64,000 nucleotides of DNA from Blastocystis sp. Blastoise (Eukaryota; Sar; Bigyra; Opalinata; Blastocystidae). The stretch covers positions 372,001 through 436,000 of the forward strand of contig JBBPEB010000029.1 of assembly GCA_039096225.1 (NCBI GenBank). The letters are read 5' to 3'. The translations under genes and the position numbers were made by a program. The notes beneath the pieces were generated by a model, which had not been told where the DNA came from, did no database searches, and saw nothing but the letters and a program-made list of their open reading frames with translations. Positions within the stretch are counted from its first letter, which is position 1. Each line of letters opens with the position of its first letter. Shown piece by piece: positions 170 through 44,218 of this stretch.

Positions 170-600
170 GGTCACAGTTGGATTACTGCTCCTGCTGAAT
201 ATACACATACTGATGTTGCTCCTGTTAAATGTTATATACCTAAGAAATGTATTCATACTTGGTATATATATATATATTATTATTATTATTTCTTTTTATC
301 ATTATAGAATTACTAGTCATTTATTATTATTGTAATTTCTATTTTATTATTATTATATTTAGTATTTTTGTCATTATAAAATTGATTTTATTATTATACT
401 TATAATGATTATACTTATCTATATAGGTCAGGCCATACTAATGCTGTTCAATCTATTCAGTTCTTCCCTGAAACATCACATCTACTTCTCTCTGCTTCTA
501 TGGATAAAAAGATTAAAATATGGGAAGTATATGATAAGAAACAATGTAAACGAACTTATATAGATAATCTATATTATTATACTTATTATTATTATACATA

Positions 601-637
<37 letters not shown>

Positions 638-1687
638 CATATTATTATTATCATTATTATACATTAATTATTATCATATTATTATTATTATATTCATGAA
701 ACTTATTATACTTATATTATATAGTTATATGGGTCACAATGGAGGTGTACGTTCTGCTGCGTTTAATTATGATGGAACACAATTCTTATCTGCTTCATTT
801 GATCGTAATATAAAATTATGGGATACCGAAACAGGTAAATGTATATATAATTATACAAAAGGTACAATTCCCTTCCAAGTCGCTTGGTCTCCTTTAGATC
901 ATAATATGTTTATTGCTCCTTGTCAAGATTGTAATGCTCATCAATTTGATATACGTACAGGGGAAGTATATATATATATATATATATATACATATATATT
1001 ACAATTTAATTTCTTTATATTTCTATAAAAATAATATCAAATACTATAAATATATATATATATTATATACAATTATCTATTATATTTAGTATCTACTATT
1101 ATATATATATATTCACTTTGATTTCTTTATATTTCTATAAAAATACTATTAAATGCTATAAATATATATAGTTAATTCAGACATATTCAGCTCATTTAGG
1201 TCCAGTAAATACTGTAACGTTCTTTAACGACGGTAAACGATTTGCAACTACATCTGATGATAAGAGTATACTTATTTGGGATTATGGTATTAATCCTCCT
1301 ATTAAAGAAGTTCGTGATGTTTCTATGTCCTCTATGCCAAGTGTAACATTATCATCAACAAAAGATAATTTATTCTGTCAATCTCTAAATAATCAAATTG
1401 TTACTTATTCTATTACAGATGATAGTGTTCATCAAAATGGACGTAAACGTTTCAGAGGTCACGTGCTTCAAGGGTACGCATGCCAAATAGCCAATAGTCC
1501 TGATGGTCAGCTGATCTCCTGTGGTGATGGTAACGGTAATGTATATTTCTGGTCCTATAAAAGTTGTAAAATGATGAAAATGTTTAAAGCTCACAATACA
1601 GCTACTGTTGGCTGTATATGGCAACCGAATCAACCAAGTAGAATGGTTACTAGTTGCTGGGATGGTACTATTAAATACTGGGATTAA
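170..1687 (+). CDS. CDC40: PRP17/CDC40 splicing factor, 3' part
   Basis: WD40-repeat protein of the second catalytic step of pre-mRNA splicing, acting in the spliceosome. The 5' end lies before the window. Exons 170-261, 427-555, 725-965 and 1172-1687 (TAA) give 325 residues in frame. They begin at the conserved PKK-IHTWSGH segment and carry successive WD blades (IKIWEVY, LWDTETGKC, ILIWDYG) to a terminal IKYWD, exactly where human PRP17 ends. The family-specific run GYACQIANSPDG..SGDGNGNVYFW is present. Introns 1 and 3 are GT-AG. Intron 2 (556-724) has no GT donor that keeps frame: the only GT nearby, at 546, gives the wrong phase. The required join CKRT-YMGH uses the repeat TTATAT present at both borders. 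Identity is confident; the intron 2 border is inferred from homology. Confidence 0.92.
556..724 (+). other. Non-GT intron in PRP17, flanked by TTATAT repeats
   Basis: The insert separates conserved CKRT from YMGHNGG. It starts TTATATAG and ends TATATAG, and the next exon again starts TTATAT. Removing one repeat copy plus the insert restores the WD40 frame. No GT in the right phase exists across 541-724. Confidence 0.7.
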
Positions 1688-5352: not shown

Positions 5353-7094
<1,742 letters not shown>

Positions 7095-10999: not shown

Positions 11000-18524
<7,525 letters not shown>

Positions 18525-37906: not shown

Positions 37907-40459
37907 CTATAGATCTTCATAAGGAGAAAAGACAGCGTTATTTTCATAAGGATCAATAATTTCAACGGGAATATAAGGGCTTCTATAACGTGGAGTATTT
38001 AAATAATATTCACGGGAATCATTGAATTTTGACTGCTTATAAAAATCAACACTTTGATTCTTAGGAAGGGGAGAACTATATATATATATAGAATATATTA
38101 TACGATATAAATTGTTATTAATATATATATATATATATATATATATACAGGCGAGATTTGTTAGTAGAATATGTTTTTGTACATTTAGAAAGAGAGAAGG
38201 AAGGATGTAAATTCTTATAATACTGTTTATTCACATTATATTTAGCATCATAGCTATTTAAAAGATCATTAGAACACGTACTTTCTTGAGAATCTATTGG
38301 TTGAACATGATTGTGTCTCATAGCAGTAGTATTATAATTCACTTTTGGCTTATAAGTAGACGTATTTTCAGAAACTGAAGAGTTCGAATAATGACGTGTA
38401 GATACCACTATATATATATATATATATATAATGTATATTATATATAATGTATATTATATATATATACTGTTAGAAGAACATAAGACAGGAGTTGATGATG
38501 AACGATAACGACTTGGATCCGAAGATTCTATATATATACATAATAATGATATACATAAATATATTATACATAATAAATATTATATAATAAATATAAATAT
38601 AATATAATATAATATATATAATAAAAAAATAAATATAATAAATATAATAAATATAATATATACCTGTTTGACTAGTGTGTTTAGCTGACATACTCTTACG
38701 AATCGAAGGAATTGAGGGAGAAGGAGAAATAGAATGAGAAGACTGCACATTAGAAGGGAAAGATGCTATATATATATATATATATATATTAATATTCTTG
38801 AAAAAAATAGAATAAATAAATATATACAAGATTTAAGCAAGGATTCAAAAGGTTCAGTATTCCTATAGATTTAATAGAATAATAATAAATAGTATATATG
38901 TATATACAATGAATAAGAATTAGATTCTATAACGGATTCTGAGATGACATCTATATATATAATATAATATAATATAATATATATAATATAATATAATATA
39001 ATATAATATAATATAATATAATATAATATAATATAATATAATATAATATAATATAATATAATATAATATAATATAATATAATATAATATAATATAATATA
39101 ATATAATATAATATAATATAATATAATATAATATAATATAATATAATATAATATAATATAATATAATATAATATAATATAATATAATATAATATAATATA
39201 ATATAATATAATATAATATAATATAATATAATATAATATAATATAATAAAAGTAATATAATAAAAAATAATAAAATATAATATAATATAAATTATATTAA
39301 ATATAATATAATATAATATAATATAATAATAAAACAAATATCTATATATACTTTCAGGAGACAAACAATTGATATTATTAGATAGAGGATATCGTTTATA
39401 AACATCGGAAGTAGATAAAAAGCTGATGGGAGTTTTTGAAGAATAAAGTTCTTCTTCATCATTCGAATCATCTTCTATAGGAGTAATAGACATTGATTTT
39501 CCATCTTCAATAAAAGATTTTGGATATGATTTATTATTAAGAGAAACAGTAATAATAATATGTTCATGAGATTTAGATTCTTTATTCTGTAATAAATTTG
39601 TTGGAGTAACATTCTTTGAGGATAACTGACTAGAGGAATAACAACGATTTTCAACAGAAGTTGTATCTATACTCTCATATTTACTTGGACTTTTAGAATG
39701 AATAACAGTAATATTATTATTATTAATATTCTCAAGTGAAGTCATAGAAATATCATTAGAAATATCATTAGAAATATCATTAGAAATATCATTAGAAATA
39801 TCATTAGAAATATCATTAGAAATATCATTAGAAATATCATTAGAAATATCATTAGAAATATCATTAGAAATATCATTAGAAATATCATTAGAAATATCAT
39901 TAGAAATATCATTAGAAATATCATTTGAAACACCATTAGAAATATCTAATGAATTATCTACATTTGAGTCAGTATTATTAGATATAATATCCTTATCTGA
40001 TTGAATAGATTGATTTGATATTACTTGTGTTAAAGAAGATGATGGTAATATAGATTCATCATCTACAGTAACAGAGCAATCGGAGAGAGATTGTTTGTTT
40101 GATATAGAGGCAGTATTATCCTCTATACTAGTTACTTTATCTAAAGAATTTCGATGAAATAATGAATTCCAGAATTGTTTAAAGGGTACCCATTTCTTCT
40201 TCGACATAGCTTCAAAATCTTTTCGTTCTTCTCTATTGACGGACTCATCAGTATAAGGAGAACGAATCGATACAGAACTATATACTTTCGATCTGTAAGA
40301 ATCATTTCGAGAAAACATTCCATTATAATAATCATTATTTAAAGGTTTTCCAGTATAACTACGAAGTTTTTGAATTCGTTTACTATCAGATTTATATCGT
40401 TTTCCATCAGAAACGGTTGACACACTAGATCTTCGAGATAAGGAACCTTTAGGTTTCAT
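37907..40459 (-). CDS. Ser/Asn-rich low-complexity protein
   Basis: Not recognised. Starts MKPKGSLSRRSSVSTVSDG at 40459. The first exon runs to 39353, followed by at least six short exons (near 38953-38909, 38874-38828, 38766-38665, 38529-38468, 38409-38151, 38075-37907) joined by GT-AG, ending PYENNAVFSPYEDL-TAG. The N-terminus is basic and serine-rich with many RxxS sites. The middle has about fifteen tandem NDIS tetrapeptides. The rest is rich in Ser, Asn and Pro without predicted domains or membrane segments. Likely disordered; could be a cytoskeletal or signalling scaffold, but there is no evidence for a role. Exon boundaries between 38.1 and 39.0 kb are moderately certain. Confidence 0.6.
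38951..39330. repeat. (AATAT)n pentamer array in intron
   Basis: Roughly sixty copies of a 5-base unit, with an interrupted distal part after 39245, occupy the first intron of the Ser/Asn-rich gene. On either strand it stays open and mimics a repetitive Tyr/Ile protein. Confidence 0.9.
39747..39936. repeat. 12-base coding repeat encoding (NDIS)n
   Basis: About fifteen nearly identical copies of AAATATCATTAG (+ strand) in frame within exon 1 of the Ser/Asn-rich gene. The near-perfect DNA identity suggests recent slippage rather than protein-level selection alone. Confidence 0.9.
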
Positions 40460-40533
40460 AAAGAAAAGCTTTATTCGCTTAAATATACCTATACATTATT
40501 GTATTTAGAAAAAATGCTTTTAAAAACAAAATT

Positions 40534-42365: not shown

Positions 42366-43121
42366 TTATAATAAATACAGGATAGTTGCAATAAGGATAG
42401 CGACTCCAAAACATAAAACATATAAAATATATGTTGTAGAACTCTTATAGTTGTTGATTAACATAAGATTTTCTTTTGAATCTAAAGAATGACTTCTCAT
42501 GTTACCATGAGTAGAAGTAGTATCTATAGACTCAAAAGCATATTTTAATGTTTTACCTAGTCGAATACCAGACTTACATATTAAACGAACAGATTCCTTT
42601 TGTATATATAATAATTTCTCTTTTGAAATCGTCATATTTGGAGTCACACCTTATATAGTATTATGTTCATTATATTTATAGTATTATATTTAAAGTATTA
42701 TATTTATATTATTATGTTATTTATATTTATATTATTATGTTATTTATGTTTATATTATATATATAAAATATAAAATCTTCTATATATATATATATCCTTT
42801 ATAGACTTCAGGAGAGAGATCAAACGTTTCTCTTGCCCATAATTCAGGAGAAAATTGAAAGGGAATGGATTCATCCCTATATATATATATATATATATAT
42901 TAGTAAATTAATAAATTCAAAAATATATATTAATAAAATATTTTTTTTAATAAATGAAATAAAAATATAAAATAGTTATGGGAATATATATATATATAAA
43001 TCCTCATCTTTACAAGTATGTAATAAGTCTTTAGCAACATTCTTCAAGTAATCCACGTCTTCTTGGTTCTATATATATATATATAATAGAAGATAAGAAA
43101 GTGAATATATATAATAAATAG

Positions 43122-43164
<43 letters not shown>

Positions 43165-44218
43165 TTTGAGAGGGACTCGAAGCGATCTATAAATAGAGCC
43201 AGCTCGATCCCATATATAATGGTACGTCTCACGTGCCATAGGAATAACGTCTTCGTACGGAGAATGAATTGGAATATAATGAGCATCTATATGTATATAT
43301 ATATAATATATATAATTATTATAACTATTCATATATATATATATATATATACGATGAGATCCAACCAGTCCACATAATTCAGTTGTATAAAGAGTAGAGA
43401 TATGAACCTATATATATATATTATTATAAATAATAAAAAATAATAATATAAATATATAATAAAAACATATAATAAAATGATTATATATATATATATAAAC
43501 AGGACAGTGAACATCTCCTAAATAATGAATCAAAAAACGTGTATTAATTGCTTATATATATATAGAATATCAAAAAATAATATATATATAAAACAAAGAC
43601 AGGAATAACAAAATAAAATATATATATTTGCTAAATCCGTTTCATTTCTATATTCAGCTGGTCTTTTTAAATTATCCATGACTTTAAATAAGCATTCATA
43701 TAAAGCACGTATAATACTTTCAGCTTCATCTTCATAACCAGGAGTACAATCTCCGTGTAAAAAGATTTAATATATATACTCAATAATATATAAACAAAAA
43801 AATATGTTTTTTTAATTTTAAATAATAATAAATTATCCCAAAACCCATTCAATACTTAAATACACAAAAAAATTATTTTTATATATATATAAAATAACCA
43901 ATAAATCATATAAAAACATCCGACAATGTACTTCCAGCTTGTTCCATGCATCGGAGCTGTTTCTTTCCATGGATCTAAACGTTTTGCAGAGTCAGCCCAA
44001 CAAGCAGCATTCATTAATCCTTGATGGGTAGAATACAAAGGTAGTTTCTGAGATGCCTCACTAGAAATAATCTCGTTGATCATTTTCTCGATTTCTGGTC
44101 CTGCATAAAGAACACCAAATTCTGCAATAATCATATGAACAACATCGAACCATCCATATGCACTTTGTATTAACAACAAAAGGAATATCGCTACATATAT
44201 CGATTTCATATTGTTCAA
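42366..44218 (-). CDS. S1/P1-type nuclease, membrane-tethered
   Basis: Secreted zinc nuclease family that degrades single-stranded nucleic acids. A signal peptide (SIYVAIFLLLLIQSAYG) is cut before Trp, which in this family becomes a zinc ligand (WFDVVH). Further family motifs are CWADSAKR, MHGTSWKY and LIHYLGDVHCPVH. The usual later NLHxxWD-like ligand motif is not obvious, so activity is uncertain. The C-terminus has a hydrophobic helix (YILYVLCFGVAILIATILYLL), suggesting surface or luminal tethering. Eight exons (44218-43919, 43751-43631, 43550-43501, 43407-43353, 43286-43165, 43068-43004, 42876-42797, 42649-42366) sum to 358 codons in frame. Introns 3, 4 and 5 are GT-AG. Introns 1, 2, 6 and 7 are not; each is bordered by a short direct repeat (CGGA, AGCAA, GGAT, AAGG). 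Confidence 0.8.
42650..42796 (-). other. Non-GT intron 7 of nuclease, AAGG repeats
   Basis: Joins SPEVYK to GVTPNMT. Both borders carry AAGG; the donor side reads GATATATA and the acceptor side TATATAAG. Confidence 0.65.
42877..43003 (-). other. Non-GT intron 6 of nuclease, GGAT repeats
   Basis: Joins TCKDE to DESIPFQF. The insert begins GGATTTATAT, and the next exon after TATAG begins GGAT. Confidence 0.7.
43551..43630 (-). other. Non-GT intron 2 of nuclease, AGCAA repeats
   Basis: Joins NETDLA to INTRFLIHYLGD. Both borders read AGCAA; the interior starts ATATATAT and ends TATATA. Confidence 0.7.
43752..43918 (-). other. Non-GT-AG intron 1 of nuclease, CGGA repeats
   Basis: Joins KYIVG to DCTPGYEDE. 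The word CGGA occurs at both borders in the same codon phase. No AG lies between the last in-frame stop and the second exon in the needed phase. Confidence 0.6.

Follow-up and report, generated by a model that had tools for sequence, protein, structure and literature searches.

The window, a stretch of 64,000 nucleotides (C19:372001-436000), belongs to the genome of Blastocystis sp. Blastoise, a stramenopile and gut protist (NCBI record), which counts 33.3 Mb in 34 contigs. It carries an S1/P1 nuclease-like gene (Table 1) of about 355 codons with no stop or frameshift, whose strand, exon order and borders match the original prediction. Exons 2, 7 and 8 of this gene match Arabidopsis ENDO2 (4cxo). 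The protein reads WKYI where its paralog on contig C18 (L001) reads WHFI, a His to Lys replacement at a residue that we take to be a zinc ligand of the S1/P1 family. Elsewhere in the window, the exon at 38951-40495 (minus strand) encodes a long tandem DISN repeat, and long Asn runs are found in several genes. Outside the window, contig C19 holds clustered model ORFs, most of them without introns (C19:280939-302478), that resemble an integrated element or virus-like region, and model proteins that look transposase-derived when judged by eye (C19:265248-266414, 196737-200088 and 309105-310923).

Table 1. The S1/P1 nuclease-like gene, its introns 1, 2, 6 and 7, and the introns of other genes that depart from the GT-AG rule. 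Positions are those of the window unless contig C19 is named.
Feature	Position	Strand	Border repeat (nt)	Description
S1/P1 nuclease-like gene	42366..44209	-		Eight exons, C-terminal membrane segment; NCBI WA158_004747 (P0001) covers part only
S1/P1 intron 1	43751..43917	-		Ordinary GT-AG, GTTTTTATATG...ACACGGAG; join used in NCBI P0001
S1/P1 intron 2	43551..43630	-	5	Repeat AGCAA; read as CA-AG, or as GC-AA at the phase of the paralog's GT-AG intron
S1/P1 intron 6	42877..43003	-	4	GG-AG register, repeat GGAT; no internal GT/GC
S1/P1 intron 7	42650..42796	-	4	GA-AG register, repeat AAGG; no internal GT/GC
CDC40/PRP17 intron	556..724	+	6	TT-AG, repeat TTATAT; no internal GT/GC
ROK glucokinase intron a	6353..6481	+	1	TT-AG; sole G is the last base
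ROK glucokinase intron b	6569..6663	+	5	AT-AG, repeat AGATA
Kinase-like gene intron	17245..17448	+	6	TT-AG, repeat TTATAT; weaker case
RBBP4 intron	C19:446135-446003 (outside window)		5	GT-AA in the repeat register

Four introns of the S1/P1 gene had been proposed to escape removal by the GT-AG rule, with a short repeat at the borders of each. For intron 1 this does not hold. An in-frame GT-AG join exists, with GTCGGAT before GTTTTTATATG and ATTGT after ACACGGAG, that yields WKYIVGYC and is the one used in NCBI P0001; in a longer view of the borders, GTCGGAT/GTTTTTATATG...CACGGAG/ATTGT reads WKYIVGYCTPGYEDEAE. Intron 1 lies outside the non-GT class, its repeat CGGA being present but unnecessary. 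The repeats AGCAA, GGAT and AAGG are found as described at introns 2, 6 and 7, for which the enumeration of joins and the ENDO2 alignment agree that there is no usable GT donor. No in-frame GT/GC-AG join is available within 60 nt for intron 6. The six such joins of intron 2 each add residues (seven in the mildest case) or lose INTRFLIHYLGD, and the four of intron 7 each remove at least VYKGVTPNMTISKE. The alignment to ENDO2, made with a query that already carried the proposed joins, crosses the intron 2 and intron 6 joins ungapped, and at the intron 7 join ENDO2 matches YKGVT. The C18 paralog lacks intron 6; it has a GT-AG intron at the site of S1/P1 intron 2, which is therefore probably old.

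Homology extends over non-GT joins not only with ENDO2 but also with Prp17, ROK kinases and RBBP4. Prp17 aligns ungapped over the CDC40 join, through CKRTYMGHNGGVRSAAFN, and the NCBI CDC40 protein (P0122) is devoid of the ten conserved residues KRTYMGHNGG. Both glucokinase joins are exactly those of NCBI P0002 (WA158_004737, partial), with 352 identical residues, which gives indirect support to their removal from RNA. Searches for a retrocopy or a second, spliced copy gave, among the best candidates, no match beyond the own exons of the gene concerned. CYEKYAS or close variants are common to ROK glucokinase relatives, and the glucokinase of Blastocystis DL has equal length over the second join (intron b). 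The join of the kinase-like gene rests on the frame and on the kinase pattern HPxIxxLYG; solved kinases, including B-Raf, align with gaps at this place. RBBP4 aligns ungapped through GEVNKARFMPQ, and an alternative frame-keeping AT-AG join of its intron would alter a conserved Ala. No GT or GC is present anywhere inside the CDC40 intron, glucokinase intron a and S1/P1 introns 6 and 7, which led to rejection of a nested intron or stwintron for these four. The remaining three window cases contain GT internally.

The class thus counts seven non-GT introns in four window genes (S1/P1 introns 2, 6 and 7, the CDC40 intron, glucokinase introns a and b, and the kinase-like intron) plus one non-GT-AG intron in the nearby RBBP4 gene. 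The second class of inserts proposed in the original prediction stands to this extent: it is a minority of non-GT introns, mostly between short direct repeats, that are interspersed with ordinary introns and recur in CDC40, glucokinase, kinase-like and RBBP4 genes. Model introns have about 13% GC, a median length of about 80 nt, a usual start GTATAT and a usual end TATAG, the latter found in 237 of 435 canonical introns. An exon/intron HMM, run ab initio on about 324 kb with decoding restricted to GT/GC donors, yielded 698 introns. With other donors allowed, the same HMM gave 43 non-GT introns, nine of them gaining at least 8 nats; several are on the wrong strand or lie within tracts of Asn repeats. 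The HMM is too blunt for joins ten codons apart and homology was therefore used for non-GT calls. Ten conserved genes outside S1/P1 were counted: PRP8, RBBP4, PP2A, CDC40, glucokinase and those that we presume, without alignment, to be PFP, CIAO1, SLC35-like, RPF2 and calreticulin. They have 61 canonical introns (script count, after manual removal of 13 model positions that were either false splits or the very non-canonical and U12-like sites at issue), four non-GT-AG introns and one U12-like donor. The resulting non-GT-AG share of about 6% may be too high because CDC40 and glucokinase were picked after their cases had been seen. The PRP8 model has 14 canonical introns, 11 of these inside the aligned region, and RAD51 introns are outside the filter of the canonical-intron count.

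Direct repeats are enriched at the non-GT introns, six of the seven window cases having repeats of 4-6 nt. In the S1/P1 gene, whose joins were chosen by repeats, the single-repeat chance is P 0.007 for AGCAA, 0.011 for GGAT and 0.027 for AAGG. Individually these are only mildly unlikely; support is drawn from the five cases outside S1/P1 (CDC40, glucokinase a, glucokinase b, kinase-like and RBBP4). With small n and registers partly chosen, repeats of at least 5 nt are found in 4/5 of these cases versus 1/61 among the canonical introns counted in the ten genes (Fisher 3.4e-5) and 5/268 among high-quality canonical introns (P 2.7e-6). The proportion is 3/4 versus 1/61 when the kinase case is dropped (P 3.6e-4) and 2/3 versus 1/61 when RBBP4 is dropped as well (P 0.004). 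For the five outside cases taken together, P is 7e-5 under a null in which every intron retains its own ends. Border repeats were rejected as a general intron trait, repeats of at least 4 nt being found in 14 of 435 canonical introns for a mean of 13.5 in the shuffled-flank null. Of the 61 canonical introns only one has a long repeat, the 9-nt GGTGATTAT; this intron lies in the PP2A catalytic-subunit gene (C19:366349-366438, minus strand) and splits FMGDYVDRG. GT-AG is available inside this repeat and, since GGTGATTAT stands at both intron ends, the GT would be supplied by the duplicated target.

The 3' end of the window cases is AG in all seven, as TATAG in five and ATAAG in two. Their lengths are within the range of the 435 canonical introns, and glucokinase intron a and the kinase intron have a lower GC content than about 96% or more of these. 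The genome encodes two copies of U1 snRNA (86 bits) with the 5' start ATACTTACCT, no altered U1 was found among the best candidates scored, and U6 snRNA carries ACAGAGA. The AG ends and the normal-looking U1 and U6 lead us to read the minority introns as spliceosomal with a deviant 5' site, and not as products of DNA excision or of a separate machinery. This favours the major spliceosome as the probable agent of removal, in which case the repeats would mark the origin of the introns and not the mechanism of their removal. Comparison of donor sequences revealed no U12-type RTATCCTT donor in the non-GT cases. A U12-type donor, ATATCCTTTT, is found outside the window in the SLC35-like gene (C19:339610, minus strand); together with U6atac (63.8 bits, above cut-off) and a U12 candidate that at 46.8 bits falls short of the cut-off, it indicates that the minor spliceosome is probably present. 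Pairing of the intron ends was rejected as a mark of the class: duplex energies spread over the canonical distribution and are no stronger as a group, with three of the seven window cases among the strongest 12% and one near the weakest. An RNA structure joining the intron ends, as in euglenid-like introns, was not found in the window cases.

We prefer, with about even confidence, the explanation that the U2-type spliceosome removes a minority of introns lacking a GT start and that the border repeats are left over from their birth. An insert rich in AT would enter an exon and duplicate a short target, either by staggered-break repair or by transposon-like insertion. A splicing register inside the repeat would then restore the former reading frame, with AG supplied by the insert or by the duplicated target. 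GT would be missing at first and may evolve later; the AT-rich body and the AG 3' site are kept. The lack of S1/P1 intron 6 in the C18 paralog and the PP2A repeat that carries its own GT speak for this explanation. No family of inserts was recognisable because the introns are of low complexity; DNA matches of the S1/P1 introns are low-complexity, and self-complementarity of TA-rich ends is a property of introns in general. Against insertion as a universal origin stand the 1-nt repeat of glucokinase intron a and the ordinary intron of the paralog at the S1/P1 intron 2 site. The repeat registers without AG in RBBP4 and the weakly supported kinase join speak against the preferred explanation itself.

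A serious rival, which we nonetheless hold to be unlikely, is mutation of the first intron base under a lenient spliceosome: older U2 introns would have had their donor changed, for example from GTATAT to TTATAT or ATATAT, and the repeats would be coincidental. In its favour, four of the five cases outside S1/P1 depart from the GTATAT type chiefly in their initial base (TT, TT, AT, TT), the S1/P1 intron 2 site holds a GT-AG intron in the paralog, and GA-AG and GC-AG introns already occur in Blastocystis ST1, as reported in the intron section of PMC5608401. Mutated donors leave the border repeats unexplained, however, and these would not be produced either by assembly errors, in which a G or T lost beside AT-rich repeats masks an ordinary GT-AG intron. 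Such errors seem improbable, even though one or two border bases would cure most cases and the borders adjoin TA/TAA repeats, a difficult template for sequencing: the conserved genes that were followed are free of frameshifts in their coding sequence (PRP8 and PP2A; others by model). A frameshift suspected in PP2A proved to be absent. For the S1/P1 gene only, decay with broken splice sites could be invoked, as NCBI P0001 omits 30 residues before intron 2, reads into intron 6 and terminates there with the C-terminus KDEDLYIYIFP, and as the His of the paralog's WHFI is replaced. The open codons throughout and the ENDO2 matches of three exons make decay very improbable, and it cannot explain CDC40 or glucokinase. 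Least probable of all is the removal outside the spliceosome put forward in the original prediction, either at the RNA level as in euglenids or by excision of DNA inserts between repeats, which would suit the border direct repeats and the variable termini but has against it the canonical-range lengths, the lack of extra end pairing and the constant AG ends, the last of which DNA-level excision would not predict.

Introns of Blastocystis ST1 are 98.3% GT-AG and about 0.5% GC-AG, with 59 GA-AG (0.16%) and 346 U12-type introns, according to the section of PMC5608401 devoted to them. Non-GT donors with AG are found there as in Blastoise, and their removal is credited to the major spliceosome. S1/P1 intron 7 is readable as a GA-AG intron of this kind, whereas that section makes no mention of TT, AT, GG and CA donors with border repeats such as those of Blastoise. 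Newly gained introns of Daphnia pulex have direct repeats of 4-12 bp at opposite ends, ascribed to staggered double-strand breaks in the part of PMC4202315 that treats them, and short opposite-end repeats are common to these neointrons and the Blastoise non-GT introns. Unlike in Blastoise, the Daphnia neointrons are nearly all canonical and their recency was shown from populations (PMC4202315). The same source cites newly gained introns of Oikopleura as often non-canonical. The introners of Amoebophrya, as presented in the relevant passages of PMC7789003, are also non-canonical with border repeats of 3-5 nt; more than 60% of introns are non-canonical in that organism and its introners have inverted repeats of 8-20 nt, whereas the non-canonical introns of Blastoise are a minority with simple-sequence ends. 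Non-GT donors are frequent in Eurytemora affinis, as here, with GA and GG donors, the only kinds named in the abstract of PMC5714493, in about 12% of introns. Fritillaria borealis has non-GT donors at notable frequency, ascribed to the U2-type spliceosome in the portion of PMC13326754 concerned; it changes the 3' end too, whereas the window cases of Blastoise keep AG. In the PMC literature, whose scope leaves subscription papers and preprints largely aside, no paper was found that joins Blastocystis, direct repeats and introns, nor one that names both Blastocystis and Blastoise.

Gene models restricted to GT donors damage conserved proteins, as NCBI CDC40 loses ten residues and the S1/P1 protein ends in intron 6. 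More broadly, how new introns arise and get spliced before good splice sites exist is an open question. A genome whose non-GT introns still bear insertion-like repeats and stand next to ordinary introns, while its U1 and U6 look normal, would open this question to testing. The features of the minority introns suggest that they may be young and removed by an unusually tolerant, otherwise normal splicing machinery. We put forward, more tentatively, that the genome could be gaining introns actively at present: AT-rich inserts without GT, flanked by repeats, would be spliced at once by the standard spliceosome in the register set by the repeat, and would later mature to repeat-free GT-AG introns. 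If this is true, a gut stramenopile shows introns between birth and maturity.
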